Assembly: GCF_014083985.1 (NCBI RefSeq)
Contig: NZ_CP046907.1
Location: 5,528,501 to 5,592,500, forward strand
Direction of reading: 5' to 3'
Source of the DNA: Streptomyces sp. SCUT-3
Lineage (GTDB): Bacteria > Actinomycetota > Actinomycetes > Streptomycetales > Streptomycetaceae
DNA length: 64,000 nucleotides
In this document: positions 10,001-27,293 of the stretch, in pieces
Layout of the letters: every line of letters starts with the position of its first letter
Position numbering within the stretch: position 1 is the stretch's first letter
The notes under the pieces: generated by a model
The model's database searches: none
Seen by the model: the letters and a program-made list of their open reading frames with translations, nothing else
Told to the model about the DNA's origin: nothing
Program-made: the position numbers and the translations under genes

Positions 10001-10068
10001 CGCCGCCCGACGAACCCGCCGCCACGCCACCGGAGCGGCTCCTGCCACGAAGGATCCCGACCCGTCAC
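7003..10068 (-). CDS. P-loop NTPase with ten C-terminal TPR repeats
   Basis: About 1021 residues. The N-terminal part has FVGRREE followed by a Walker A GPAGAGKTAL, as in STAND/AAA-type regulatory NTPases. The middle is helical without a motif I recognise. From about residue 570 to 900 there are ten 34-residue TPRs of the form GRYDAALADFDRAVELDPxDAWALAxRAETHRLA, several differing at only a few positions, followed by a helical cap of ~110 residues. There is no DNA-binding, transmembrane or nuclease domain. The start GTG at 10068 was preferred over the upstream GTG at 10092 because GGGGAG lies six bases before it. The gene stands alone and convergent with the siderophore operon. Function unknown; a sensor or scaffold role is inferred from TPRs only. 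Confidence 0.8.
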   Translation of the reverse strand: MTGRDPSWQEPLRWRGGGFVGRREEIAAFEEALRRSPEGAGPVLFRVHGPAGAGKTALLRRMESAARQARAATVYVDGPVADAVGAMAAVGTQLAQQGLPLKGFEERLAVYRRLRQEPVAGVFGTGADRAAVTVPGASGVGLPGPRLTPGTGAFVRAADAEQVVAWVDRVKARFGSRLRSYEDVRLVLSPLQVLTPVFLDELAEAVRGRPWTVWFFDAGDRHAGPVPGTWLHDVLVTGRYGRPPANVLAVTAGRSRPDAQRRDDRTGPVVDLPLEVLTETEVRELSAAAGITGERAVEAVLELSGRLPVLVSTLVAGCPAAPATTDRPADPAADGRPSGPARVADPGRATVEQFLAREADPVRHAAVLACALPREWDEDVYRAAVAEEAAPLFDRLRRLPFVTGRAGRHRYHEVVRTAVLRLHREQSPDLWREQHTRLADAFRQWRERLEDSTAPDGGRWQDERLLGHRLEETYHRLCADPRAALPRALRELPDAYDHGTPTLRRWAEALLQAGRDADAPAVSDRGRQVLAALEDPLPGVAALTLLLDGDALDTPGRALAHLLRARDRRNAGHYEQALADYRAAVALAPEARRAHHGRGVAHVLVGRYDDALADFERVLDLAPDDARALADRAEIHRQAHRYDEASADYDRAVDLAPDDAWILAGRGQARQAAGRHDDALADFDRALELDPGDLWSLADRAETYRLAGRHDDALADYDRAVELDPRNARAAAGRGETHRLAGRYDAALADFDRAVELDPHDAWALANRGQVHQAMGRYDAALADFDLAVELDPYDLWALVNRAETHRIAGRYDAALADYDLAVETDPYDAWAAAGRAETHRLAGRYDAALADFDNALELDPDDAWALAGRGRTHRATGRYDAALADARRVVAADPDDGWSHYEEGLTLRAMARPGWEQCLARAVERFARDAAGAGPGPATGEAVPGEAATGEGGLFVAHCALSSWEEADRHLTRFLAAAPHRGQVGEVLADLDALAQAIASATEHLRPFRHRLEDALAALP
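7420..8370 (-). repeat. 102-bp tandem repeat array encoding TPRs
   Basis: The TPR-coding part of the NTPase gene is a tandem array at DNA level. Units of 102 bp (34 codons) recur about ten times, and blocks such as GTCGTAACGGCCCGC recur almost unchanged in several units. This suggests recent unit duplication or gene conversion and makes the array prone to copy-number change and to assembly collapse. Confidence 0.8.
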
Positions 10069-10161
10069 CTGCGACTCCCCCTGAACGAACACCCCGGCAC
10101 ACCGTCAACGCCATGCTGCCCGCCGCCCGCAGCCGTCCCCGAAGTCTGCGGCACTCCGGCG

Positions 10162-11241
10162 TCAACGGGGTGTCGGAGGCGCCGCGGCCGGTCCGCCGCC
10201 GGTCCTCTCCGCCCTGCGGCCGGCTCTCGCGGGGGAGGGCGACGGCCCGGGCGTCGTCCGGGGGAAGGCCCGCCGGTAGTCGCCCGGCGACACCCCGAGC
10301 TGTTTGAGGAAGTGGTGGCGGAGGTTGTTCGCCGTGCCGAGGCCGCTCAGCTCCCCGATCTTCTCGATCGGCAGGTCCGTCGACTCCAGCAGGCTCCGGG
10401 CCCGTGCCAGACGCTGGTCGAGAAGCCACCGGAGCGGAGTTGTCCCGGTGGCCGCCCGGAGCCGTCGGTGGAGGGTCCGCGGGCTCATCGCCGCGCGCCG
10501 CGCCAGGTCCTCGACCGTCAGGGGCCGGTCCAGGTTCGCACGGGCCCAGTCCAGTACGGGCCCCAGGCTTCCGGTGTCGGTGGTGGGCACTGCCAGGTCG
10601 ACGAACTGCGCCTGGCCGCCGGGCCGGTGGGCGGGCACCACCATCCGCCGGGCCAGTTGGTTGGCGACGTGCGCGCCCAGGTCGCGCCGTACCAGGTGGA
10701 GGCAGAGGTCGAGCCCGGCGGTCAGCCCGGCGCTGGTGAGCACATCGCCGTCGTCCACGTACAGCACCGAGTCGTCGACCTGCACCTTCGGGTAGCGCTC
10801 GGCCAGCCGGGCGGTGTGCATCCAGTGGGCGGTGGCGCGCCGTCCGTCGAGCAGCCCCGCCTCGGCGAGTGCGAAGGCGCCGGTGCACAGGGAAACCATG
10901 CGGGCGCCCGCCTCGTGGGCGCGGCGCAGGGCCGCGACCAGTGGCCGCGGCAGCGGTCTGCCCTCGTCGACGCAGGCGTCGGGCACCGAGGGCACGACGA
11001 CCGTGTCGGCGCCGGCGAGGTCGTCGAGCCCGCGGCTCGTGCGCAGCGACAGTCCGGTCCCGGCGGGGGAGCCGTCCCGGGGACGCTCCCCCGTACCGCA
11101 CAACCACAGGTCGTACCAGGGGTCGGCCAGGTCGGGCTGCGGCTTCCCGAAGACGGTGCAGGGGATGCTCAGCTCGTACAGGTCCCACGAGGGGACCTCG
11201 ATGTCCTCGGTCACGACCACGGCGACGGAACCAGGATTCAT
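10162..11241 (-). CDS. GlxA-type AraC-family transcriptional regulator
   Basis: 359 residues with two domains. Residues 1 to ~190 form a DJ-1/PfpI class I amidotransferase-like domain with the nucleophile-position cysteine at residue 119 (SLCTGAFAL). Residues ~235-335 carry two AraC helix-turn-helices (LTVEDLARRAAMSPRTLHRRL and IGELSGLGTANNLRHHFLKQLGVSP). Such proteins usually act as activators that sense a small metabolite. It is divergent from the imine-reductase-like gene, with a 128-bp shared promoter region, so control of that gene is plausible. The tail after ~335 is Pro/Arg rich. Confidence 0.9.
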   Translation of the reverse strand: MNPGSVAVVVTEDIEVPSWDLYELSIPCTVFGKPQPDLADPWYDLWLCGTGERPRDGSPAGTGLSLRTSRGLDDLAGADTVVVPSVPDACVDEGRPLPRPLVAALRRAHEAGARMVSLCTGAFALAEAGLLDGRRATAHWMHTARLAERYPKVQVDDSVLYVDDGDVLTSAGLTAGLDLCLHLVRRDLGAHVANQLARRMVVPAHRPGGQAQFVDLAVPTTDTGSLGPVLDWARANLDRPLTVEDLARRAAMSPRTLHRRLRAATGTTPLRWLLDQRLARARSLLESTDLPIEKIGELSGLGTANNLRHHFLKQLGVSPGDYRRAFPRTTPGPSPSPARAGRRAERTGGGPAAAPPTPR

Positions 11242-14193: not shown

Positions 14194-15444
14194 GTGACGG
14201 GGAGCCGGATGTCACAGGTGACGCAGCAGGAGACGGCGCAGGACGAGGCGGTGCACGGCGGTGACGCGGTGCACCGTGTCACCGCGGGGGACGACGGCGC
14301 CGCGCGGGGGAAGGCGTTCGCCCCCGAGTACCAGGGCGCTCTCGGCTCGCTGTCGGTGAACTCGTCCCTGACCGACGTGCTGGCCAGGGGGATCGAGGAG
14401 CTGCGGGCGGCGGAGGAGGCCGGGGAGCAGCGGGAGGCGGCGCGCTGCGGGCTCGCCGTCGCGGAGGCGTACCGGCGGCTGGGCAGGGTCGGGGAGGCCG
14501 ACCGTGCGTGGAGGGCGAGTTACCGCGCGGCGCGCGCGGCCGGTGACGTCGGGGCGATGGCATGGGCGCTGTGGAGCGGCGGCACGCTCGCCCGCCAGCG
14601 GGGCGCACTGCGCCTGGCGTACCGCCTGCTCCGCCTCGCGGCGGAGGCGGGCCGGGCAGGGGGCGACGTGGTCGTGCGCGGCTACTCGCTCGCCGGACTG
14701 GCGGAGACCGGGCGGATCCAGGGCGACTACGAGGCCGTCGGTGAACTCCACGAGCAGCTGCTCGCCGAGGCACGCCGACGCGGCGAGGCCCGCCACACGG
14801 TGTGGGCGCTGGAGGGCATAGCGCAGATGCACCGGAACACCGGCTCCTACGACAAGGCGCTCGCCCTTTTCGAGGAGGCGGCCGAGACCGCGGGACGGGC
14901 CGACGACCGGCGGGGACGCGCCTGGGCGCTGCGGGGGATCGCCGACGTGGTGTCCGTGCGCGACGGTGACGCGGAGCGTGCGCTGGCGCTGCTGGCCGAG
15001 GCCGAGGTCGCCTGCCGCGAGATGCGGCTGTCGAGCGCCCTGGCGTACAACCACAAGATGCGCGGCAACGTTCTGTACCGGGCGGGTCGTTACGAGGAGG
15101 CCCGGGAGAACTACGCGCAGGCGCTGGGGGAGTTCCGCGCGATGGACGAGCCGCGCGGGACGGCCCTGTCCCGTCTCGGGCTCGTCAAGTCGCTCGCCCG
15201 GCTCGGGCAGGACGCGACGCGGACCGCCGCGGAGCTGGCCGAACTCCGCGACACCCTGGACCGGATCGGCCTGCGGCACGCCCGGGACATGGTCGACAGG
15301 GCGGCGGCCGAGCTGGGCGTGGGCCCGCTGCCCGCGGAGAGCGGATCCTCCGGATCCGGGGGCGGGGCCGGAGTCGAGGCCGGGGTCGGAACCCGGACTG
15401 GGACCGGGATGCCGGTCGTGCTCGCGGAGGGCGCGCTGCGATGA
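14194..15444 (+). CDS. TPR-like helical repeat protein
   Basis: 416 residues made almost wholly of helical TPR-like repeats from about residue 50 to 380 (for example WALEGIAQMHRNTGSYDKALALFEEAAETA and RGNVLYRAGRYEEARENYAQALGEF). There is no signal peptide, membrane segment or catalytic motif. AGGAGG lies 8 bases before the GTG start at 14194; an internal ATG at 14209 is an alternative. It is coupled by ATGA to the polyprenyl synthase, so a joint function (partner or scaffold) is likely but not demonstrated. Confidence 0.8.
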   Translation: MTGSRMSQVTQQETAQDEAVHGGDAVHRVTAGDDGAARGKAFAPEYQGALGSLSVNSSLTDVLARGIEELRAAEEAGEQREAARCGLAVAEAYRRLGRVGEADRAWRASYRAARAAGDVGAMAWALWSGGTLARQRGALRLAYRLLRLAAEAGRAGGDVVVRGYSLAGLAETGRIQGDYEAVGELHEQLLAEARRRGEARHTVWALEGIAQMHRNTGSYDKALALFEEAAETAGRADDRRGRAWALRGIADVVSVRDGDAERALALLAEAEVACREMRLSSALAYNHKMRGNVLYRAGRYEEARENYAQALGEFRAMDEPRGTALSRLGLVKSLARLGQDATRTAAELAELRDTLDRIGLRHARDMVDRAAAELGVGPLPAESGSSGSGGGAGVEAGVGTRTGTGMPVVLAEGALR

Positions 15445-16559
15445 CCTCTCCCACCACTGCGACCCCCGTGCCCGCCGTACCTTCCGTGTCCGCGGTGTCT
15501 GCGGTGTCCGCGGTGTCCGCGGTGTCCGTGCCGGACGTGCCCGACGTGCTCGGCCGCTGCCGCGCCCTGGTGCGTCCCGCGCTGGCCGACGCCGTCGCGC
15601 AGCTCCACCCGTGGACCGGTGAGATGGCCGCCTACGCGTTCGGCTGGTGCGACGTGGGCGGCGCCCCGGCCTCCGGCGCCTCCGAGGGCAAGGGCGTGCG
15701 GCAGGCCCTGGCCGTACTGGGCGCCGAGGCGGCCGGGGCGGACGGCGGGGCCGCGGTCGGCGGGGCGGTCGCCGTCGAACTGGTCCACGCCTTCTCGCTG
15801 CTGCACGACGACATCATGGACGGCGACGGGACGCGCAGGCAGCGGGAGACCGTGTGGAAGGCGTACGGCACCGGGCCCGCCGTCCTCGCCGGGGACGCGC
15901 TGTTCGCCCTCGCGGTGCAGACCCTCGCCGGGACGCCGGGGCCCCGCACGGCCGCCGCAGTGCGGCGCCTGTGCGCGACGCTGGCCGAACTGGTGCAAGG
16001 CCAGGCGGAGGACCTGCTGCTGGAGGACCGCCCCTGGACGGGGCCCGGAGCCGTCCGGCCGGACGAGTACCGGTCGGTGGCGGAGCGCAAGACCGGTTCC
16101 CTCCTCGGCTGCGCGGCCGCGCTCGGCGGCCTGCTCGGCGGGGCGCCCGGGGAGACCGTCACGGCGCTGGACCGGGCCGGGCGGCACCTCGGCGTGGCCT
16201 TCCAGGCCGTCGACGACCTGCTCGGCGTCCGGGGCGACCCGGCGGTGACCGGCAAACCCGTCCACGGCGACCTGCGGCGGCGCAAGAAGACCCGTCCCGT
16301 TCTCGCCGCCCTCGCCGGGGACGGCCCCGCCGCCCGCGAGCTCGCGGCGCTGCTGGACTCCTCGTTCCGGCTCGACGACGCCGCTGCGGCCCGTGCCGCC
16401 GTGCTCGTCGAGGAGGCCGGGGGGAACGCGGCCACCGTGGAGGAGGCCCGCAGCCACCTCGACGCCGCCCGCGCCTGCCTGCGGGGCGTCCCGCTCGCCC
16501 GGAGCGCGGCGCGGGACATCGACTCGCTGATCGCCTTCCTGCTGCACCGCGCGGTGTGA
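15441..16559 (+). CDS. Polyprenyl (isoprenyl) diphosphate synthase
   Basis: 372 residues of the trans-isoprenyl diphosphate synthase family. The first aspartate motif is LLHDDIMDGD and the second is FQAVDDLLGVRGD, with ERKTGSLL between, so all catalytic metal ligands are present. It should condense isopentenyl diphosphate with an allylic diphosphate (chain length unpredictable). The first ~35 residues contain a Ser-Ala-Val repeat from four 9-bp units. The gene starts in an ATGA overlap with the TPR protein. No terpene cyclase, quinone or carotenoid gene is next to it, so the end product is unknown. Confidence 0.87.
   Translation: MTSPTTATPVPAVPSVSAVSAVSAVSAVSVPDVPDVLGRCRALVRPALADAVAQLHPWTGEMAAYAFGWCDVGGAPASGASEGKGVRQALAVLGAEAAGADGGAAVGGAVAVELVHAFSLLHDDIMDGDGTRRQRETVWKAYGTGPAVLAGDALFALAVQTLAGTPGPRTAAAVRRLCATLAELVQGQAEDLLLEDRPWTGPGAVRPDEYRSVAERKTGSLLGCAAALGGLLGGAPGETVTALDRAGRHLGVAFQAVDDLLGVRGDPAVTGKPVHGDLRRRKKTRPVLAALAGDGPAARELAALLDSSFRLDDAAAARAAVLVEEAGGNAATVEEARSHLDAARACLRGVPLARSAARDIDSLIAFLLHRAV
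15492..15527 (+). repeat. Four tandem 9-bp repeats
   Basis: The unit GCGGTGTCC (first copy ends in T) occurs four times head to tail at the 5' end of the polyprenyl synthase gene, encoding SAV repeats. It is a likely slippage tract with in-frame length variation. Confidence 0.85.
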
Positions 16560-17862: not shown

Positions 17863-18258
17863 TCAGAGGCCGGGCCGGGTCTCGCAGGGGGCGCAGAAGC
17901 GGGTGTGGGGGCGGACCCGGAGCCGGTCCAGGGGGATCTTCTCCAGGCAGGACTCGCAGCGGCCGTAGACGCCCTCGGCCATGTGCCGCAGGGCGCGGGC
18001 GATCTCGGCGAGCTCGCGGCGCGAGGCGGCGACCTCGGCCTCGGCGGCGGCCGACAGGGCGGCCTGTCCGGCCACCGAGCCGGAGCGCTTGCCGTCGCCG
18101 TGCCTGCCGTCGTCGCGGGAGCGGGAGCGGGAGTGATGCGGGTCGGCGGTCCGTGCGGCCCGGGCCACCAGGTCCGCCAGTCTCACGCTGTGTTGCTCGT
18201 ACTGCTCCTCGAGCACGTCCCGCAGTGCCTCGATGGGGTCCTGCCCGGTGAAGATCAT
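17863..18258 (-). CDS. DksA/TraR-type C4 zinc-finger protein (first of three)
   Basis: 131 residues. An N-terminal helical region is broken by a basic Arg/Ser/His linker (residues ~40-60), and a C-terminal C4 zinc finger follows: C101-x2-C104 and C122-x2-C125, within the family context RCESCLEKIPLDRLRVRP. DksA-family proteins act through the RNA polymerase secondary channel; whether this one does is not shown. The ATG at 18258 has AGGAG six bases upstream; an upstream GTG at 18294 abuts the response regulator stop. It lies directly downstream of the two-component pair and is likely co-transcribed with it. Confidence 0.87.
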   Translation of the reverse strand: MIFTGQDPIEALRDVLEEQYEQHSVRLADLVARAARTADPHHSRSRSRDDGRHGDGKRSGSVAGQAALSAAAEAEVAASRRELAEIARALRHMAEGVYGRCESCLEKIPLDRLRVRPHTRFCAPCETRPGL

Positions 18259-18294
18259 CGGCTGCTCCTGGAGGGAGGGGGCAAGGACGAACAC

Positions 18295-19056
18295 TCAGGG
18301 CTCGACGAGCCCGGCGCGGATGGCGTACCTGGTCAGCGCCAGCCGGTCGCGCAGGCCGAGCTTCTGCAGAATGTTCGCCCTATGACGTTCGACGGTCTTG
18401 ACGCTGATGACAAGAGTCTGAGCAATTTCTTTCGACGAATGTCCTTCGGCGACCAGTTTCAGGACTTCTTCCTCACGCACCGTGAGCACCCGTTCCGGGA
18501 CCTCCCCGCCCCGGTGCACGTGCTCCAGGTAGGTGCGGATCAGAGCGGTGACCGCCCCCGGGTACAGGAACGGCTCCCCGCGCATCGCGGCCCGGCACGC
18601 CTCGACGAGGTCCCGGTCGGCCACCGACTTCAGCACGTAGCCCGAGGCGCCCGCCTTGAGGGCCTCGAAGAAGTACTGCTCGTTGTCGTACATGGTCAGG
18701 ATGAGGATGCGCAGTCCCGGGTGGGCGCGGGAGAGCTCCCGGGCGGCCTGCAGGCCGGTCATGCGGGGCATGGCGACGTCCAGGACGGCCAGGTCGACCG
18801 GATGCCTGCGCGCCTGCTCGACGGCCTCGGCCCCGTCGCCCGCCTCCGCGACGACCGTCAGGTCCGGCTCGCTGTCGAGGATCAGCCGGACGCCCCGGCG
18901 GACCAGGGCGTGGTCGTCCGCGAGGAGGATGCGGGTGGGGGCGGGCCGCCCGGCGTCGGCCGGGCCGGGGGGCCGGGCGGTGTCCGGACCGGTGGGTCGG
19001 GGGGCGTCCGGGGGCGCGGGGGTGCGTGCCGGGGGGTTCGGGGAAGGGCTGGACAC
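18295..19056 (-). CDS. NarL/LuxR-type response regulator
   Basis: 253 residues. After a ~40-residue Pro-rich leader, a receiver domain starts at TRILLADDHALVRRG (acidic pair D47/D48) with the phosphoacceptor D93 (VLDVAMPRMTG). A C-terminal LuxR helix-turn-helix at about 187-245 follows (LTVREEEVLKLVAEGHSSKEIAQTLVISVKTVERHRANILQKLGL). The GTG start lies 3 bp after the histidine kinase stop, so the pair is coupled. Target unknown; the palindrome upstream of the kinase is a candidate. Confidence 0.93.
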   Translation of the reverse strand: MSSPSPNPPARTPAPPDAPRPTGPDTARPPGPADAGRPAPTRILLADDHALVRRGVRLILDSEPDLTVVAEAGDGAEAVEQARRHPVDLAVLDVAMPRMTGLQAARELSRAHPGLRILILTMYDNEQYFFEALKAGASGYVLKSVADRDLVEACRAAMRGEPFLYPGAVTALIRTYLEHVHRGGEVPERVLTVREEEVLKLVAEGHSSKEIAQTLVISVKTVERHRANILQKLGLRDRLALTRYAIRAGLVEP

Positions 19057-19059
19057 GGG

Positions 19060-20064
19060 TCACTCGTTCCTGTCGCCTGTACCTGTGGGTGTGCGGTCGC
19101 CGGACGAGGGGGCGTCCGACGGGACGTCGACCGGCACCTGCAGCAGGACCTCGGTGCCGCCGCCGGGCCGCGGACCGATGCTCAGCCGGGCCCCGACCAG
19201 CAGGGCCCGCTCCCGCATCCCGCGGATCCCCGCCCCCTCCCGGACGATGCCCGGCCCTAGGCCGTCGTCGGTGATCCGCAGTTCCACGCAGTCCGCCGTC
19301 CGGCGCAGGGACACCTCGGCGGTGGACGCCTCCGCGTGCCGGGCCACGTTGGTCAGGCCCTCCTGCGCCACCCGGTACAGGACCAGTTCCACCTCGCGGT
19401 CCAGGGGCGGCAGCCCGGGCGGGAAGCGCCGCCGCACGGTCATCCCGGTGTGGGTGGAGAACTCCGTCGCCAGTGAGGTCAGGGCACTGACCAGGCCGAG
19501 GTCCTCCAGGACGCCCGGCCGCAGCCTGCGGGCGAGCCGGCGCACCTCGTCGAGGCTGCCGCGGGTGGTCTCCTGCGCGTGCCCGAGGTCCTCCAGGAGG
19601 TCCTCCGGGGCCCGGTCGGCCACCCGCTTGAGCTCCAGCAGGACCGCGGTGAGGCTCTGGCCGACCTCGTCGTGCAGCTCCTGCGCTATCCGCCGCCGCT
19701 CGGCCTCCTGCGCCGACAGGGCGCGCGCGTTGCTGGTGCTGCGCTCGGCCTCGAGCCGGTCCAGCATCTCGTTGAACGTGCGCAGCAGGTCGGGGATGCC
19801 GCCGTGGCCGGTCACCGGCAGGCGCTGGCCCGGACGGAGCAGGTCGATGGTGGTCATCATCCGGGTCAGCCGCTCCAGCGGGGCCAGGCCGATGCGCAGC
19901 AGCACCGCGTTGGCCAGCAGCATGACGGCCAGCCCGCCGGTGAGCACCACGGCCTCGGTGAGCAGGATCGGGACCGAGACGGTCACCGGGGCCCACAGCA
20001 GCACCGCGGTGGCCACGGCCAGCACCAGGGCGTTGAGCAGAAAGATCCGCCAGAACAGGGACAC
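19060..20064 (-). CDS. NarL-family sensor histidine kinase
   Basis: About 334 residues. Two membrane segments (RIFLLNALVLAVATAVLLW and a second near 38-58) are separated by a very short loop, followed by a HAMP-like linker (APLERLTRMM...FNEMLDRLE). The HisKA_3 dimerisation box AQELHDEVGQSLTAVLLELKR has phosphorylated H131, and a HATPase domain ends at GAGIRGMRERA. The lack of an extracellular sensor loop suggests sensing in the membrane or via a partner. The GTG at 20064 was chosen because GAGGAGG lies 12 bases upstream and the membrane helix starts at once; the frame is open further upstream. Confidence 0.86.
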   Translation of the reverse strand: MSLFWRIFLLNALVLAVATAVLLWAPVTVSVPILLTEAVVLTGGLAVMLLANAVLLRIGLAPLERLTRMMTTIDLLRPGQRLPVTGHGGIPDLLRTFNEMLDRLEAERSTSNARALSAQEAERRRIAQELHDEVGQSLTAVLLELKRVADRAPEDLLEDLGHAQETTRGSLDEVRRLARRLRPGVLEDLGLVSALTSLATEFSTHTGMTVRRRFPPGLPPLDREVELVLYRVAQEGLTNVARHAEASTAEVSLRRTADCVELRITDDGLGPGIVREGAGIRGMRERALLVGARLSIGPRPGGGTEVLLQVPVDVPSDAPSSGDRTPTGTGDRNE

Positions 20065-20415
20065 GACGAAACAGGACCTCCTCGCCCCCCACTGTTCCAC
20101 GGGAACCGGGGGTCCCGGCCGCCGCGTCCGCGGGATGCACCGCCCCCCGGCGGGAAATGGGTGCCAGCACCCATTTCCCGCGGCGGCCTCAGCGGGCATG
20201 GTGGGGATCATGAGTCTGCCTCTGTCCCGCACCGCGAGCGGTTCGCCGCCGGGCGGCCCGCGCACCCCCTGAGGGGCCCGCGAACGGCATCGCCGGCGAC
20301 GGTCCGCCGACGGTGCGACGACGAGGCCGCGGCGGGCCCCGGCCCGCAGGCAGGAACCATTTCGCGCTTCTTCGCGCATCTCCCATTCCTTCGCACGGTG
20401 AGGAACCCACCAGCC
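20065..20415. other. Divergent intergenic region holding a 15-bp perfect palindrome
   Basis: 351 bp without a supported gene separate the histidine kinase from the second DksA-like gene, so it should carry promoters in both directions. The striking element is GCGGGAAATGGGTGC (20150-20164), repeated inverted at 20167-20181 with a 2-bp spacer. It is the only AT-richer patch of the region. No coding signal is visible. Confidence 0.6.
20150..20181. promoter_or_regulatory. Perfect 15-bp inverted repeat, candidate operator
   Basis: The arms GCGGGAAATGGGTGC and GCACCCATTTCCCGC flank a CA spacer. It is 86 bp upstream of the kinase start and 235 bp upstream of the divergent DksA-like gene, with no U-run after it, so a dimeric regulator site is more likely than a terminator. 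The binding protein is unknown; the neighbouring NarL-type regulator is the first candidate. Confidence 0.55.
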
Positions 20416-20745
20416 ATGACGTCCCTGGACACCGAACGCCCCGACAGCCCCCACGAACGCGTCTCCGCGCACGACGCCCGCCAGTGGCTGGCCCGCGAGC
20501 GCAACGCGCGCCTGACCCAGCTCGACGCCATCGAGCAGAGCGGCCAGAAGGACGCCGACGAGCTGATGGCCGCGCAGACGGTCTCGCTCCGTCGGGTGCT
20601 GAAGGAGATCGACCACGCCGAGCAGCGCCTGGAGGCCGGGAAGTACGGCGTGTGCGAGGAGTGCGCCAGGCCCGTCGCCCCGGAGCGCCTGGAGATCCTG
20701 CCCTACGCGCGCTGCTGCGTGTCCTGCCAGAAGAAGGCCGTGTGA
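20416..20745 (+). CDS. DksA/TraR-type zinc-finger protein (second of three)
   Basis: 109 residues, a compact member of the DksA/TraR family. A helical hairpin (ARQWLARERNARLTQLDAIE and SLRRVLKEIDHAEQRLEAGKYGVC) leads into a C4 finger: C80-x2-C83 and C101-x2-C104 (an extra C100 gives CCxxC). The context YGVCEECARPVAPERLEILPYAR is canonical. It is the first gene of a rightward run with the third DksA-like gene, the MreB-like gene and SecDF. GAGGAA precedes the ATG at ~10 bases. Confidence 0.9.
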   Translation: MTSLDTERPDSPHERVSAHDARQWLARERNARLTQLDAIEQSGQKDADELMAAQTVSLRRVLKEIDHAEQRLEAGKYGVCEECARPVAPERLEILPYARCCVSCQKKAV

Positions 20746-20820
20746 GGGCCGCGACGAGACCCCGGACCGGACTTCCCTGACGGGCCCACCCGGCCCCCTC
20801 GCACGGAGGACGTGACACCA

Positions 20821-21224
20821 GTGAGCACCGACACCGCCCCCGACACCGCTCCGGGCACCGTCAACGCCGGACTGTCGCCGGTACAGCTGGCCGCGGCGCG
20901 CGACCTGCTCGAGGAGCAGCGCGGATCCCGCATCGAGCAGTTGCGACGACTGCAGCAGCACGACGGCGGGACCGGCGGAACGGACGGGCCGGACGGGCCG
21001 GACGGTGACGGGGCCGGCGCCGGCGCCGGTGCGGCCCGGATCAGGCTCGTCGACTGGGCCCGCATGGTGCTCGCCGACGTCGACGCGGCCCTCGCCCGGA
21101 TGGACGAGGGCCGGTACGGCGTGTGCGGGATGTGCACCGGGCCGGTCGAGTGGGACCGGCTGCGTGTGGTGCCCAGGCCCGCTACTGCTCGCGCTGCCAC
21201 CCGGCGCGCAGGGCGGGGAGGTGA
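20821..21224 (+). pseudogene. DksA/TraR-type zinc-finger protein (third), frameshifted near its end
   Basis: From the GTG at 20821 (GGAGGA ten bases upstream; an in-frame GTG at 20812 is too close) the frame gives a helical N-terminus, a Gly/Asp/Ala linker and the first finger half YGVCGMCTGPVEWDRLRVVPR. It then runs off into PATARAATRR. One base later, from 21177, the frame reads ARYCSRCHPARRAGR and stops at 21224. This restores the second CxxC of the finger and creates a GTGA overlap with the next gene. A one-G deletion in the AGG at 21175-21177 explains everything. As given, the frame ends at 21243 without the second zinc half-site. Confidence 0.8.
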
Positions 21225-22108
21225 CGCCCCCGCGTCCGGGTGAGGGGGCGGGCGGGGAGGGCCTCCCCTTCCCCCGGGCGCGGTCGAACGGGGCGCCGGG
21301 GGCCGCGCAGCCGGCGCGGGGGGACCTCGCGGCGGGGCTGGCGATCGACATGGGCAGCGCCCGTACCCGGGTGTGGTCCCGGGACGGGGGCCTCCTGGCC
21401 GACATGCCCAGCACCGTCCTCACCGGGGAGACGGCCGGCCGCCCGGTGAGGCGCGGCCGGGTCGTCGACGTGCCCGGCTGCGCCCGCATGCTGCACCGGC
21501 TGGTCGGCGACCGCGCCGCGCGCCGCCGCCACCGGCCGGTGATCGTCCTGAGCTGCCCGGTGCTGTCCGAGCAGGACTACCGGGCGGCCGCGGTCCGCGC
21601 GCTGTCGGCCCTCGGGCCGAGCACGGTGCTGGTGATCGACAGCGCCCGGGCGGCGGCCCTGGGCGCCCGCGCCGACCTCGCGGACCGCCGCCCCCTGCTG
21701 GTGGTCGACGTCGGGGCGGGCCTGGTGGAGGTCACCCTGCTGGCGGACGGGCAGGTGGCCCGCGCCCGGCAGGCCCGGCTGGGCCTGGAAGACATCGGCC
21801 CGGCCCTGCCCGTCGGAAGGATCGTCAGGGCCGTCACCGATATGGTGCTGGACATGCTCAGGGAGGACGGGACCGCGTCGACGGTCGACGCGCTGGACCG
21901 CGGGCCGCTGGTGACCGGCGGCGGAGCCCTGCGCCCGGAGATCGTCTACCGCATCGCCACCCTGCTGGACACCCCGGCCCGTCCGGCCCCCGCACCGGCC
22001 ACGGCCGTCGTGCGCGGTGCGGCCGCGGCCCTGCTGTCCGGACCCGGCCACCCGGCCCTCGTCGCCTGCGACGCCCGGGACGGAACCCCCCAGGGCCTCC
22101 GGCGGTGA
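21221..22108 (+). CDS. Short MreB-like actin-fold protein
   Basis: 295 residues, shorter than MreB (~340-345). The actin/Hsp70 nucleotide-binding landmarks are present: phosphate-1 LAIDMGSARTRVW (about 40-52), VIVLSCPVLSEQDYRAA, phosphate-2 LLVVDVGAGLVEVTLLADG and adenosine motif PLVTGGGALRPEIV. The deficit in length falls in the part that would form subdomains IB/IIB, by my reading. From memory, S. coelicolor has a third, short MreB-like protein in a similar DksA/SecDF setting. The GTG start overlaps the restored stop of the third DksA gene. A role in wall growth or sporulation is inferred from MreB only. Confidence 0.8.
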   Translation: MTPPRPGEGAGGEGLPFPRARSNGAPGAAQPARGDLAAGLAIDMGSARTRVWSRDGGLLADMPSTVLTGETAGRPVRRGRVVDVPGCARMLHRLVGDRAARRRHRPVIVLSCPVLSEQDYRAAAVRALSALGPSTVLVIDSARAAALGARADLADRRPLLVVDVGAGLVEVTLLADGQVARARQARLGLEDIGPALPVGRIVRAVTDMVLDMLREDGTASTVDALDRGPLVTGGGALRPEIVYRIATLLDTPARPAPAPATAVVRGAAAALLSGPGHPALVACDARDGTPQGLRR

Positions 22109-22713
22109 CCCCGCCGCCCGAGCGGGCCGCACCCCGCACGGCACGGTCCGCCGGACGGCCGCGCCCGCGACCGGCCGTGCCCCTCCATCCGGCAGGACAC
22201 CCGGCAGGACACCCGACGGGACGCCCGGCGGACCGGGGTGCGCAGGCGCTGTCGGCCGCACTGCTCGCCGTACTGGCGGTGTTGTCGGTCCTGTGGGCGC
22301 CGACGGCGACGGCGAGGACGGCGGCCCTGCGCACGGCCCCGGCCGGGACCGGGGCGGCGGTGCAGGCCCCGGGCGCGGGGCAGGCCCTGGGCCCGTCCCG
22401 GCCCGGTACGGCCCCCGCCCCGAAGTCCGCGCCCGCGCCCGAACCCGCACCCGTATTCGACCCCGATCCCGCTCCGGCCCCGGCGCGGGCCGACGGGCCG
22501 TGGCGGGTGCCGCCCGGCCACGCGGCCGTGCTGCAGCAGGCGGGGGAGCAGCACGCCCCGGCCGGCCCCGGGCACGCCGCCTCCGCCCAGGCCGCCCGGC
22601 AGCCGCTGCCGGGCGCCGGCCCGCCCGCGCCCCCCGCCCCGGACGGGGCCCGCACCTCCGCGCCGCCCGGGACCCTCCCCGGCGTCCGCGGGCCTCCGGC
22701 GACGACCGGCTGA
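22105..22713 (+). CDS. Small single-pass membrane or exported protein, Pro/Ala rich
   Basis: 202 residues, unrecognised family. An Arg/Pro-rich N-terminus (1-45) leads into one hydrophobic segment, ALSAALLAVLAVLSVLWAPTATA (~50-72), then a long Pro/Ala/Gly-rich tail with the short alternation of APAPEPAPVFDPDPAPAP. The GTG start overlaps the MreB-like stop (GTGA), so it is co-translated with it. The layout (basic N-terminus, one helix, disordered exterior) resembles a membrane anchor or wall-spanning protein. Function unknown. Confidence 0.6.
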   Translation: MTPPPERAAPRTARSAGRPRPRPAVPLHPAGHPAGHPTGRPADRGAQALSAALLAVLAVLSVLWAPTATARTAALRTAPAGTGAAVQAPGAGQALGPSRPGTAPAPKSAPAPEPAPVFDPDPAPAPARADGPWRVPPGHAAVLQQAGEQHAPAGPGHAASAQAARQPLPGAGPPAPPAPDGARTSAPPGTLPGVRGPPATTG

Positions 22714-22794
22714 CCGGTTCCCGAAAGACCGATCCCGTCGTCCTTCCGGCGTGCCCGCCCGGGCGCGCCGGCCTGCCCACCGGAGGCAATTTCC

Positions 22795-25152
22795 GTGACC
22801 CGTGCCACCGCGGTGCGGGCGGTCCTGGCCCTGGCCGTCCTGCTCGCGTCCGCATTCATCGCCCTGGCCACCCCCGTCCGCCTGGGACTCGACCTGCAAG
22901 GAGGAACCCGGATCGTCCTCCAGGCCCGTGACTCGGCCACCGCGACCGCCGACCGGGAGACCACCGAGCGCACCCTGGAGGTCCTGCGCAACCGCGTCGA
23001 CGCCCTCGGCGTCGCCGAACCCACCCTCACCCGGTCCGGCGAGGACCGGATCATCGTCGAACTGCCCGACGTCCAGGACCCGAAGGAGGCCGCAGAGGTC
23101 CTCGGCCGCACCGCGCAGCTGACCTTCCACGCCGTCGAGGGGGTGGAGGAGCAGAAGGAACAGGGGAAGGAGCCCTCGGCCGAGAAGGCTGACAAGGGCG
23201 CCCGAGTCCTGGAGGACGAGTCCGGGCAGCGGCTGCGGCTGGCCCCCACCGCGCTCGACGGATCGGGCGTGAAGGACGCCGCGGCGCAGATCGACACCGC
23301 GCAGGGCGGGGGCTGGTTCGTCTCCGTGGACTTCCGCGGCGGCGGAGGGGACGACTGGGCGAAGCTGACCGGCGATGCCGCCTGCAACCCGGCCGGCAGC
23401 CCGCAGCGGCGGGTCGCGATCGTCCTGGACAACGAGGTGATCTCCTCCCCCCAGGTCGACCCCTCGGTCGCCTGCAAGGTCGGCATCAACGACGGCGCCA
23501 CGCGGATCACCGGCTCGTTCACCGCCGAGGAGGCCCGCGACCTGGCCCTGCTGATCAAGGGCGGCGCCCTCCCCGTCCCCGTGGACATCGTCGAGCAGCG
23601 CACGGTCGGCCCGACGCTGGGCGCCGACGCGATCGACGCCAGCGCCCGCGCGGCCCTGATCGGCATCGCGCTCACCTCGGTCTTCGTCATCGTCGTCTAC
23701 CGGTTCTTCGGGGCGCTGGCCGCCGTCGCCCTCGCCGCCTACGGGCTGATCTCCTACGCGGCCATGGTGGGACTGGGCGTGACCCTGACCCTCCCCGGCC
23801 TCGCCGGGTTCGTGCTGGCGGTGGGCATGGCCGTGGACGCCAACGTGCTGGTCTTCGAGCGCGCCCGGGAGGAGTACGCGTCCGCCCCGAAGCGCGGCCT
23901 GCACAAGGCCTCGACCGCCGGGTTCCGGCACGCCCTCAGCGCGATCGCCGACTCCAACATCACCACGCTCCTCGCCGCCGGACTGCTGTTCTTCTTCGCC
24001 TCCGGACCGGTCAAGGGGTTCGGTGTGACCCTGTCGATCGGCGTGCTGGCCTCGATGGTCTCCGCGCTGGTCGTCACCCGGGCCCTGGCCGACCTGTTCT
24101 CCGACCGCGCGTTCCTCACCCGCCGGCCGCAGCTGAGCGGCATCGCCCTCCCCGGCCGGGTCCGCACATGGCTGGCCGAGCGCAACCCCGACCTGCTGCG
24201 CAGCCCCCGAGGCTGGCTGGCCCTGTCGCTGGCGGCCGTCGTGCTGGCGGGGGCGGGCGTCGCGGTGAAGGGACTGGAACTGGGAGTGGAGTTCACCGGC
24301 GGCAGGCTCACCGAGTACTCCACCACCCGCACCCTGGACGCCGAGGAGGCCAGGGAGGCCGTCGCCGCGGCGGGGTTCGACCGGGCCGCGGTCACCACCT
24401 CCGGCGACGGCGACGTCTCGGTGCGCACCGGTGAACTGTCCAACGCCGGGGAGGAGCGGATCCGGGCGGCCCTCGCCGAGGCGGGCGGCGGCGCAGAGAA
24501 GGTGAAGGACGAGATGATCGGCCCGAGCCTGGGCGACGAACTGCGGCGCAACGCCCTGATCGCGCTCGGCATCGCCCTGGCCGCCCAACTGGTCTACCTG
24601 GCCGCACGGTTCCGCTGGACCTTCGGGGCCTCCGCGGTGATCGCCATGATCCACGACGTGGTCCTGCTGGTCGGGATCTTCGCCTGGCTCGGCAAGCCCG
24701 TCGACGGTGTCTTCCTCGCCGCGCTGCTCACGGTCATCGGCTACTCCGTCAACGACTCCGTGGTGGTCTTCGACCGGGTCCGCGAACTGTGGGGCGCGTC
24801 CCGCCGCACCCCGTTCCGGCAGGTGGCGAACACGGCGGTGCTGCAGACGGTGCCGCGCACCGTCAACACCGGCATCGGCGCGGTGTTCATCCTCGCCGCG
24901 CTGGTCGTACTGGGCGGGGACTCGCTCGCCGACTTCGCGTTCGCCCTGCTGACCGGTGTCCTGGTGGGCACCTGGTCGTCGGTGTTCACGGCCGTCCCGG
25001 CGGCGGTGGAACTGGAGGCCCGCAGGAACGCGCCCCCGCCGCCCCCGGTCTCCAAGGGGAAGAAGCGGACGGGTACCGGCTCCGCCCGCCGGCTCCCCGG
25101 CGGCCGCGCGGCGGACGGCCGCGCGGCGCACCCCAACGGGGCGCAGGTCTGA
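22795..25152 (+). CDS. secDF: SecDF fusion, protein translocase accessory
   Basis: 785 residues joining SecD and SecF in one chain. The SecD half has the first membrane helix (AVLALAVLLASAFIALA), LGLDLQGGTRIVLQ, VLRNRVDALGVAEP, the periplasmic P1 region and the five-helix block with LAVGMAVDANVLVFERAREE. The SecF half starts near LELGVEFTGGRLTEY and has GYSVNDSVVVFDRVRE. By family it uses the proton gradient to pull secreted proteins through SecYEG. GGAGG lies 8 bases before the GTG. Streptomyces usually also carry separate secD and secF elsewhere, so this would be an extra copy tied to this locus. The C-terminus is Lys/Arg/Gly rich. Confidence 0.94.
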   Translation: MTRATAVRAVLALAVLLASAFIALATPVRLGLDLQGGTRIVLQARDSATATADRETTERTLEVLRNRVDALGVAEPTLTRSGEDRIIVELPDVQDPKEAAEVLGRTAQLTFHAVEGVEEQKEQGKEPSAEKADKGARVLEDESGQRLRLAPTALDGSGVKDAAAQIDTAQGGGWFVSVDFRGGGGDDWAKLTGDAACNPAGSPQRRVAIVLDNEVISSPQVDPSVACKVGINDGATRITGSFTAEEARDLALLIKGGALPVPVDIVEQRTVGPTLGADAIDASARAALIGIALTSVFVIVVYRFFGALAAVALAAYGLISYAAMVGLGVTLTLPGLAGFVLAVGMAVDANVLVFERAREEYASAPKRGLHKASTAGFRHALSAIADSNITTLLAAGLLFFFASGPVKGFGVTLSIGVLASMVSALVVTRALADLFSDRAFLTRRPQLSGIALPGRVRTWLAERNPDLLRSPRGWLALSLAAVVLAGAGVAVKGLELGVEFTGGRLTEYSTTRTLDAEEAREAVAAAGFDRAAVTTSGDGDVSVRTGELSNAGEERIRAALAEAGGGAEKVKDEMIGPSLGDELRRNALIALGIALAAQLVYLAARFRWTFGASAVIAMIHDVVLLVGIFAWLGKPVDGVFLAALLTVIGYSVNDSVVVFDRVRELWGASRRTPFRQVANTAVLQTVPRTVNTGIGAVFILAALVVLGGDSLADFAFALLTGVLVGTWSSVFTAVPAAVELEARRNAPPPPPVSKGKKRTGTGSARRLPGGRAADGRAAHPNGAQV

Positions 25153-25331: not shown

Positions 25332-27004
25332 TCAGCCGGTGTCGGCGTAGCAGCGCACCGCGCGGGCGGACAGCGGGAAGCGCACCGGCGTCGCGCCGAA
25401 GACCAGGCGGCGGGCCTCGTCCCCGGCCTCCGCGACCGCCTCCAGCACCGTGCCGGCCAGTTCCTCCGGCGTGTGGACCATGACCTCGTCGTGCTGGAAG
25501 AAGACCACGCGCGGCCCGTCCGGCCCCGCTCCCGCCAGGCGGCGCCGCAGCGCGGCCAGCATCGCCAGCGCCCACTCCGCGGCACTCGCCTGGACGACGA
25601 AGTTCCTCGCGAAGCGGCCGCGGGAGCGGGCCGCGCGCCCCGCCTCCTCGCCGTCCCCGGGCACGTCGGCCGACGGAGGGGGGCAGGTGCGTCCCAGCCG
25701 GGAGCGGACCAGGCCGCCGGCCTCCCCGGCCCGCGCGGCCTCCTCCACCAGGGCCATCGCGGCCGGGAACCGGTGCCTGAGCACGGGGAGCAGCCGGCCG
25801 GCCTCCCCGGTGGTCTGCCCGTACACGGCGCCCAGCACGGCGACCTTCGCCCGGGCCCGGTCGCCGCCGAACGCCGGGGCCAGCGCCGCGTACAGGTCGC
25901 CGGCCGCCGCCGCCCGGACCAGCCCGGCGTCCTCGGACACGGCCGCCAGGACCCGCGGCTCCAACTGCTCGGCGTCGGCCACCACCAGCAGGTGCTCGGG
26001 GTCGGCGACCACCGCGCCGCGCAGCACCCTCGGGATCTGCAGCGCTCCGCCGCCGCGGGTGGCCCAGCGGCCCGAGACCACGCCGCCGACCACGTACTCC
26101 GGCCGGAACCTGCCGCCGCGCACCCACTGCTCCCGCCACGCCCAGCCGTGGGCGGCGTGGATCCGCGACAGCTCCTTGTACTCCAGTAGCAGCCGGGCCG
26201 CCGGGTGGTCCGCCTCGCGCAGCTCCCACGCCCTGGTGGAGTTCAGCCGCACCCCCTGCTCGGCGAAGGCGCGGAGCACCTGGGAGGGGAGTCCGGGTTG
26301 ACCGGCCGCCCGCCCAGGGCCTGCTGCACCCGCCTGGCCAGCTCCGCCAGGCGGGCGGGGCGCCCGCCGCCCGCCGGACGCGGCCCCAGCAGCCCCTCCA
26401 GCAGCTCGTCGTGGGCCCGCGCGCTCCACGGCAGCCCGTCGTGCCCCATCTCGACGGCGGCCAGCGCCCCGGCGGACTCCGCGGCGCACAGCAGCCGCAT
26501 CCTGTCCGGGTGGGGCAGGCGGGCGGTCAGCCGCTGCTGCTCCGCGTGCACGGCGACCAGGGCCGCCAGCGGGTCCGTGCCCGGGGGCAGCCGGTGCCGG
26601 TCCGCCTCGAACAGCGCGGGTCGGTCGTCGGCGCCCGTTTCAGGGGGGTCCTCGGGCACCGGCAGGCCGTTGGCCCTGGCCCAGGCCGCCCCCAGCGAAC
26701 GCGGCTCGCCGAACCGCCCCTGATGGCCCAGCAGCAGGGCCTCGACCAGCCGGACGTCGTGGCAGCGCGCCGGGCGCACCGGCAGGGAGGGCAGCAGGCG
26801 CGGGTAGACCTCGTCGGTGGCCGCCCACACCCAGCGCGGCGGGCCGGCGACCTCGCGCTCGGCGACCGCGGCGGCCAGGTCCGGCACGTGCGCGGCCGGG
26901 CCGGCAGGTCGGCCGTCCCCGTCCAGCTCCTGCAGTCGCCCGCCGGGCCCCACCGCGTCGGCGGCCACGGCGACCCGCCCGCCGTGCGGCCGCTCACCGG
27001 CCAC
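25332..27004 (-). pseudogene. PolA-family 3'-5' exonuclease/DNA polymerase, frameshifted
   Basis: The N-terminal part (from about 27004) reads VAVAADAVGPGG...WVWAATDEVYPRLLPSLPVRPARCHDVRLVEALLLGHQG and so on to GGRPVNPDSP. The other frame continues SQVLRAFAEQGVRLNSTRAWELRE through the polymerase domain to 25332. Polymerase motifs are visible: A as VVADAEQLEPRVLA, B as RAKVAVLGAVYGQTTGEAGR, C as VVFFQHDEVMVH. One C missing from a CCCC run (26286-26289, plus strand GGGG) explains the break. Restored length is ~557 residues, fitting the short actinobacterial PolA-like proteins without a 5' nuclease. GTG 27004 is a best guess for the start. Confidence 0.75.
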
Positions 27005-27293
27005 CGGGACACCTGCCGGGACCGGACCGCGCCGACGGGGCGGACCGGGCGCGGCGGCCGGTCCGGTGCGGGGCGGGGGAAAGGAGGGGAAGGGGCACGG
27101 CGCGCAAGCTAGCAGCCTGCGCCGACACCCGCGGGCCGCCGCCGTCGCCGGCATCATTGCCCTCACCTTCGCCGTCGGTGGTGGGCGACCGGGTTGCGGC
27201 GGCCGGGGCGGGGGAAAGGATCAAGAGCACGTGCGCCCCCGCCGGGCTGACGGGTCCGGGGAGCGGGGGCTCAGGAAGGTTAGGACGGAACGC

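Follow-up and report, generated by a model that had tools for sequence, protein, structure and literature searches.

In a 64,000-nucleotide stretch of Streptomyces sp. SCUT-3 DNA (hereafter the window; G000:C1:5528501-5592500 of a single-contig 6.08-Mb genome of the family of Streptomyces), the regulatory pair GarRS, DksA-like proteins, a short MreB-like protein, a proline-rich protein and a fused SecDF are encoded side by side. We propose that this locus is probably a locally regulated envelope/secretion module, in which a GarRS transcription layer is combined with translational feedback on SecDF. The genes are real, conserved and largely on record already, gene by gene; what is added here is the identity of the proline-rich protein, a covarying lock over the secDF Shine-Dalgarno (SD) sequence, a locus-specific operator candidate, and corrections to two of the DksA-like genes, dksA1 and dksA3.

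A putative arrest peptide encoded before secDF

The proposed translational feedback involves the following features, given as positions of the window.

22105-22713, plus strand: ApdA-type arrest peptide (by sequence), 202 residues, one N-terminal hydrophobic segment, C-terminus ...LPGVRGPPATTG
22687-22698, plus strand: arrest motif codons R-G-P-P, CGC GGG CCT CCG, with the predicted P-site codon CCT at 22693
22692-22699, plus strand: predicted anti-SD arm GCCUCCGG, inside the arrest codons (pairing, covariation, fold prediction)
22780-22787, plus strand: secDF SD arm CCGGAGGC, with GGAGG at 22782-22786
22795-25152, plus strand: fused SecDF, 785 residues, GTG start at 22795 (family scans)

Because a separate secD/secF pair is present elsewhere in the genome (PF02355 matches at C1:5310251-5311812), the fused SecDF of the window is the second SecDF set of this organism. 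The proline-rich open reading frame (ORF) lies on the same strand, 81 nucleotides (nt) before the secDF start codon, and at 202 residues is below 300 residues in length. As read from the sequence, its product carries a basic region and then a single hydrophobic stretch, ALSAALLAVLAVLSVLWAP, and it ends in VRGPPATTG, i.e., RGPP followed by a four-residue tail. Of 49 Streptomycetaceae loci, 44 have an ORF ahead of secDF whose product terminates in R[AGS]PP and a few further residues, mostly as GRAPPxxSG[TI] before the stop codon in gene layout A and as VRGPP in layout C (both described below), and a leader with an R[AGS]PP end also precedes secDF in most loci of other families. RSPP or out-of-frame hits in L017, L018 and L021 were rejected as the motif. 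Given the position before secDF, the signal-like segment and the R-A/G-P-P motif, the proline-rich protein looks like an ApdA-type arrest peptide. ApdA was first described in 2021 (PMC7897499), and a 2024 study widened its range to 398 actinobacterial genomes (PMC10987492). Translation arrest was reported in December 2025 for seven RAPP/RGPP peptides of S. lividans, including the ApdA homologue SLIV_07330 upstream of secDF (PMC12992588).

A preliminary description of this DNA, made from its letters, had listed the product as a single-pass membrane protein and suggested testing whether the MreB-like protein binds to it and to SecDF. One hydrophobic segment is indeed present, and the gene lies between mbl and secDF in the window, as a stable membrane partner linking the two proteins might. 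Such a role is nevertheless very unlikely, as apdA adjoins secDF rather than mbl when gene layouts change, and the low-complexity body matches no family, only the hydrophobic segment and the C-terminal RxPP region being conserved. The protein is far better explained by an arrest function than by structural partnership with the MreB-like protein. It was also rejected as the counterpart of SCO6167, since the gene of relatives at that place belongs to the Rv1733c family.

A separate observation concerns the secDF-only loci L056-L062, where the leader carries two tandem arrest motifs, e.g., QERAPP and, ~9 residues further on, RGPP or RAPP close to the C-terminus, a possible double-stall design.

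Pairing between the arrest codons and the secDF Shine-Dalgarno sequence

Within the window's codons GGG CCT CCG GCG lies GCCUCCGG, which is perfectly complementary to CCGGAGGC, the SD arm, and the stem appears in the minimum-energy fold (z score of -2.2). In layout A, it is the tail codons UCC GGC (Ser-Gly) that yield CUCCGGCA opposite UGCCGGAG. SD context and codons shift together, giving GCCUCCAGCA:UGCUGGAGGC in L030 and L035, and matching changes were found in L105 (GCCUCCAAC:GUUGGAGGC), L076 (CCUCCACGGG:CCCGUGGAGG) and L064 (CCUCCUGCGG:CCGCAGGAGG). Flanking pairs outside the SD core likewise change on both sides (G-C 20/A-U 13; G-C 20/C-G 11; C-G 17/G-C 5).

The longest perfect pairing of the junctions' own arms was then compared with that of swapped partners in 20,000 permutations. 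Own arms paired over a mean of 7.32 nt among 50 unique junctions, compared to 5.87 ± 0.18 nt after swapping, with 66% of junctions at 7 nt or more. The 12 junctions from outside the Streptomycetaceae, taken alone, gave 7.67 nt compared to 6.56 ± 0.33 nt, and 48 other loci held out from the first set gave 7.69 nt, 77% of them reaching at least 7 nt. As controls, upstream windows of the same transcripts paired over a mean of 4.88 nt, and 38 unrelated gene pairs over a mean of 4.21 nt, none of them reaching 7 nt. The pairing covaries across Actinomycetes, which is new here. Codon usage is skewed at the same sites: the tail Ser codon is TCC in 40 of 41 tails (44.5% elsewhere), and the stall-site Pro is CCT in 35 of 95 unique junctions (1.7% of Pro codons). 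The predicted cost of opening the SD drops by ~2 kcal/mol (mean of 40 loci) when a ribosome sits between codons -2 and +8 relative to the stall, whereas a ribosome placed elsewhere has a much smaller effect; for the window, it is predicted to fall from 10.5 kcal/mol when free to 6.7 kcal/mol when stalled at RGPP. Prediction and covariation together point to a SecM-type SD-unmasking stem in the window.

Several points weigh against this interpretation. The swapped arms matched the own arms in 0, 38 and 0 of 20,000 permutations for the 50 junctions, the 12 junctions and the hold-out set, respectively, but the junctions share ancestry, so that these counts overstate significance and are not probabilities. 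No 7-nt perfect stem is present in 34 of the 95 unique junctions and, because rare CCT or CCA stall codons are found there too, the codon bias may in part have to do with the stall rather than with pairing. In addition, a ribosome at the stop codon is predicted to free the SD of the window equally (6.5 compared to 6.7 kcal/mol), so any regulatory difference must come from the dwell time of the stall. Finally, apdA has been lost in L014, the only other genome with the layout of the window, as well as in L029 and L036.

It is conceivable that arrest acts alone, for example through transcription-translation coupling or mRNA stabilization, and that the anti-SD match is a by-product of the common codons of conserved Pro-Pro and Ser-Gly residues and a common SD context. 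Consistent with this, one SD context is common to most Streptomyces loci, the same 34 junctions pair weakly, and prediction in 2021 gave no SD-sequestering hairpin for ApdA (PMC7897499). What such a by-product does not account for is that own arms beat swapped arms in all three data sets, that compensatory changes are seen in unrelated lineages (e.g., L030/L035, L105, L076 and L064), and that control gene pairs were blank. We therefore regard arrest alone as unlikely, and an SD lock formed by the arrest or tail codons as the better account.

As a side observation, the rare Pro codons CCT and CCA jointly account for over half of the P-site codons of the 95 unique junctions, even without strong anti-SD pairing; a tRNA or wobble effect on stalling is possible.

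Conservation of the gene set in changing layouts

The remaining parts of the locus lie immediately before those listed above.

17863-18258, minus strand: DksA1, DksA-like C4 zinc-finger protein, 131 residues (PF01258, 37 bits)
18295-19056, minus strand: GarR, NarL/LuxR-type response regulator (Response_reg and GerE; orthologues 71-87% identical, in the same position)
19060-20064, minus strand: GarS, HisKA_3 sensor kinase with two transmembrane segments and a very short loop (family scans; 25-orthologue alignment)
20148-20183, no strand: candidate GarR operator, 36-bp palindrome around AAATGGGTGCCAGCACCCATTT (conserved core RATGGG-N8-CCCATTTC)
20416-20745, plus strand: DksA2, short DksA-like protein, 109 residues, intact C4 finger (family match in frame 19579-20745; AlphaFold2 model)
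20821-21243, plus strand: DksA3, DksA-like, with a frameshift in the second Cys pair of the zinc finger (comparison with relatives)
21221-22108, plus strand: Mbl2/MreB-like short actin-fold protein, 295 residues, counterpart of SCO6166 (PF06723, 86 bits; AlphaFold2 model)

Conservation was examined in 200 genomes of the family Streptomycetaceae, with Mbl-like proteins counted at E < 1e-30 and gene layouts read from 20 kb around each locus; a second set comprised 80 named loci/genomes found by an alignment-based scan of genome contigs, and the presence of GarR was scored from the fetched loci. The short Mbl-like protein was found in 31 of the 200 genomes and the fused SecDF in 49, which include all 31, and in each of the 31 the fused secDF adjoins mbl. 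Because every mbl genome carries the fused secDF, compared to 49 of 200 genomes overall, gene conservation is far beyond chance. The garRS-dksA2-dksA3-mbl set was present in most of the 31 sampled Streptomycetaceae and in most of the 80 named genomes.

Gene order takes several forms. In layout A (23 loci), secDF-apdA-garR-garS diverges from dksA2-dksA3-mbl, which is often followed by a gene for an Rv1733c-family membrane protein (NF050032; e.g., L015:8552-9214, minus strand) that is absent from the window. Rv1733c itself is a protein of the DosR dormancy regulon. In layout B (the window and L014), garR-garS diverges from dksA2-dksA3-mbl-(apdA)-secDF, and in layout C (six loci) mbl-apdA-secDF stands without GarRS and without DksA; layouts A and C recur among the 80 named loci. 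In another family, f15 (L069-L071, L073, L075 and L078), GarRS is absent, and apdA-secDF has dksA-mbl-dksA or mbl-dksA nearby. Altogether, these layouts, with the f15 and Kribbella loci, indicate that the gene set stays together despite its changing order. Most of the arrangement is conserved, in several layouts; the preliminary description had thought that it might be.

In one genome (G187, locus L044), fragments of SecDF, GarS and Mbl lie within 1.2 kb (~9300-10500 after orientation), i.e., a decayed whole cluster.

The GarRS pair and a candidate operator

The two transmembrane segments of GarS are joined by a loop, WAPVTVSVP, that is nearly invariant in the alignment of 25 orthologues, an architecture that suggests intramembrane sensing. 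LiaS is among the longest NCBIfam matches of GarS, although below the cut-off; LiaS is an envelope-stress kinase. A HisKA_3 kinase with hardly any extracellular loop and its NarL-type regulator, as initially described, are confirmed, and the window has all that marks a GarRS locus, namely these two genes, their divergence from a dksA-like gene and a shared promoter element.

Between garS and dksA2 lies a palindrome whose exact core, in 12 whole genomes, matches nowhere but at this locus. Allowing one mismatch, the core is present at 57 of the 70 garS loci in the named set, while no match at up to two mismatches was found in the six layout-C loci, which are without GarRS. A fully conserved 36-bp palindrome was rejected, as only the core RATGGG-N8-CCCATTTC is conserved. 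In the simplest reading, this predicted site is probably the GarR operator, with a local regulon. The secDF gene is found on opposite sides of the divergent garS-dksA2 promoter in layouts A and B, and downstream of the promoter either way.

In S. coelicolor, SCO6162/6163 received the name GarR/GarS in 2024, as a pair that responds to glucose and regulates ACT and RED negatively; the two genes are co-transcribed (PMC11043171). SCO6160-6167 are lowered together by glucose (PMC4848846) and raised together in a sco5282-D125G mutant (PMC6629963), and a site for OsdR is predicted between SCO6163 and SCO6164 (PMC5069765). When secDF is deleted, two enzymes are secreted less, and almost no promoter activity resides in the 300 bp preceding S. 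coelicolor secDF (PMC4139356), as expected if secDF is read from upstream through apdA. The earlier statement that no function was established is thus partly outdated, since a role of GarRS and an effect of secDF deletion have both been published.

The proposed module

We propose two layers of control. In the first, the intramembrane-type kinase GarS would phosphorylate GarR, which would bind the divergent garS-dksA2 palindrome and jointly set the garSR side and the dksA2-dksA3-mbl side; secDF would be carried on either side, after garR in most Streptomyces and after mbl in the window. In the second, the gene directly before secDF would encode a monitoring peptide of the ApdA type. Under fast export, the signal-bearing nascent chain would be pulled out, translation would be completed, and the last codons would pair with the secDF SD and shut it. 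When export is slow, the ribosome would stall at RGPP and cover the anti-SD codons, the SD would be freed, and extra SecDF would be made. Relief of arrest by export in this organism, and the action of the DksA-like and MreB-like proteins in the same response, are presumed in this scheme.

Not all of the evidence favors a single module. Its parts are separable, as 18 genomes have secDF without mbl and, in the named set, Kribbella has garRS, dksA and mbl with no secDF nearby; moreover, secDF has been reported to be expressed constitutively at a low level in S. coelicolor (PMC4139356). These observations would suit mere chromosomal neighborhood, with GarRS as an antibiotic/glucose regulator, SecDF as a spare motor, and the MreB-like and DksA-like proteins as passengers kept by common inheritance. 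So would the altered ACT/RED of a GarRS deletion in S. coelicolor and the failure of Operon-mapper to join the flanking genes there (PMC11043171). We consider neighborhood alone improbable, however, as the genes stay together through layouts A, B and C and are together again in f15 and Kribbella, the palindrome is specific to the locus, and co-regulation has been published (PMC4848846, PMC6629963).

The idea of one conserved candidate system linking a membrane signal, the envelope and export is hence retained for its conserved neighborhood, locus palindrome, published co-regulation and intramembrane-type kinase, and is given up for DksA1, an intact DksA3 and a partnership of the proline-rich and MreB-like proteins. 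More tentative than the locally regulated module, and on balance rather doubtful, is a wider formulation, i.e., that ApdA across Actinomycetes holds the secDF anti-SD lock in its own arrest/tail codons, inside a GarRS-DksA-Mbl envelope/secretion stress module run by short actin-like and DksA-like proteins.

The discoverers of ApdA saw no hairpin over the SD and did not settle how ApdA could control secDF; the comparisons made here provide such a hairpin, down to the individual nucleotides. If the proposal is true, one short stretch of nucleotides acts both as the stall signal and as the RNA lock. Such a design is compact, the codons used in a coding region being dictated by their pairing with the ribosome-binding site of the next gene. 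The monitoring of secretion would also be linked with a conserved sensor kinase and with a short MreB-like protein, in antibiotic producers employed for secreting proteins.

The MreB-like and DksA-like proteins

The MreB-like protein matches PF06723 (E value of 2.7e-24), and its AlphaFold2 model (pLDDT of 80) matches MreB/Mbl structures with TM-scores of 0.65-0.75, bearing out a shortened actin-fold protein of 295 residues. Its structured part is ~80 residues shorter than MreB (a four-subdomain form of ~330 residues), with ~70 residues between the phosphate-2 and adenosine motifs, which leaves little room for subdomain IIB, and it falls below the NCBIfam MreB cut-offs.

Of the three DksA-type zinc-finger genes originally counted, dksA1 and dksA2 encode C4 zinc fingers above the Pfam cut-off, while DksA3 has lost its second Cys pair. 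The AlphaFold2 model of DksA2 (pLDDT of 84) has two antiparallel helices plus the finger; the long coil with an acidic tip (E. coli D74, A76) was not found in it, as judged from this model and an alignment to the E. coli DksA sequence. The DksA proteins of the window fall below the NCBIfam DksA cut-offs. With a finger and a short coil without the E. coli acidic tip in DksA2, "DksA-like" is the limit of what the evidence supports.

DksA1 had been described as coupled to the kinase pair, which is not borne out. Its ATG at 18259 is a better start than the GTG at 18294, and no relative carries DksA1 beside garR; it is a neighbor in this genome only, and was rejected as a member of the module.

In DksA3, the second Cys-x-x-Cys is lost through a frameshift near 21170, where the window reads ...VVPRPATARAAT; all 22 relatives with an extractable dksA3 keep four Cys and end in ...VPQAR[YF]CxxC.... 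Pfam zf-dskA_traR gave no match to DksA3 of the window, which was also missing from the scan of its own genome. Consequently, of the GTGA overlaps reported to join DksA3, the MreB-like protein and the membrane protein, that between the MreB-like and proline-rich genes (22105-22108) stands, whereas the DksA3/MreB-like overlap is present only in the frame of the relatives. A family A DNA polymerase gene 5 kb from dksA3 (25332-27166, minus strand) is likewise interrupted: a frameshift at ~26280, in a C-run, leaves two ORFs that overlap. With a second nearby gene split in this way, both frameshifts are likely indel errors of the assembly.

Elsewhere in the window, a tRNA-Gly called by ARAGORN at 15370-15463 (minus strand) overlaps the ends of two coding genes and is probably a false positive.

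Comparison with known systems

A close counterpart is the S. coelicolor locus SCO6160-SCO6167 with GarR/GarS, which has the same orthologous gene set and published co-regulation. The preliminary description had named a comparable set there, and its content was right; the order differs, in that secDF lies on the garR side in S. coelicolor and the membrane protein gene 3' of mbl, there as in layout A, is of the Rv1733c family and has no equivalent in the window. DksA1 and a frameshifted DksA3 are found only in the window.

The short actin-like protein shares with MreB/Mbl the actin fold and the phosphate and adenosine motifs DLGS.RTR, DIGA.LTE and GGGALRP, but has ~250 structured residues and is kept as a separate family. 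DksA2 shares the C4 zinc finger and antiparallel helices with DksA/TraR, but its coiled coil is shorter (helices 18-41 and 49-73) and has no conserved acidic D-x-A tip.

Like ApdA (PMC7897499, PMC10987492, PMC12992588), the window has a small signal-bearing ORF with an R-A/G-P-P end directly upstream of fused secDF; it differs in its RGPP with a four-residue tail, and a covarying anti-SD in the arrest codons is unreported for ApdA. In SecM-secA, VemP-secDF2 and uDF_RQH_Enterobacterales-secDF2 of Alteromonas (PMC10987492), arrest opens a stem over the SD of a downstream sec gene, as shown for SecM and the Alteromonas peptide. The peptide of the window has no sequence relation to these beyond RxPP/RAGP and, unlike in those systems, the left arm of the predicted stem consists of the arrest or tail codons themselves.

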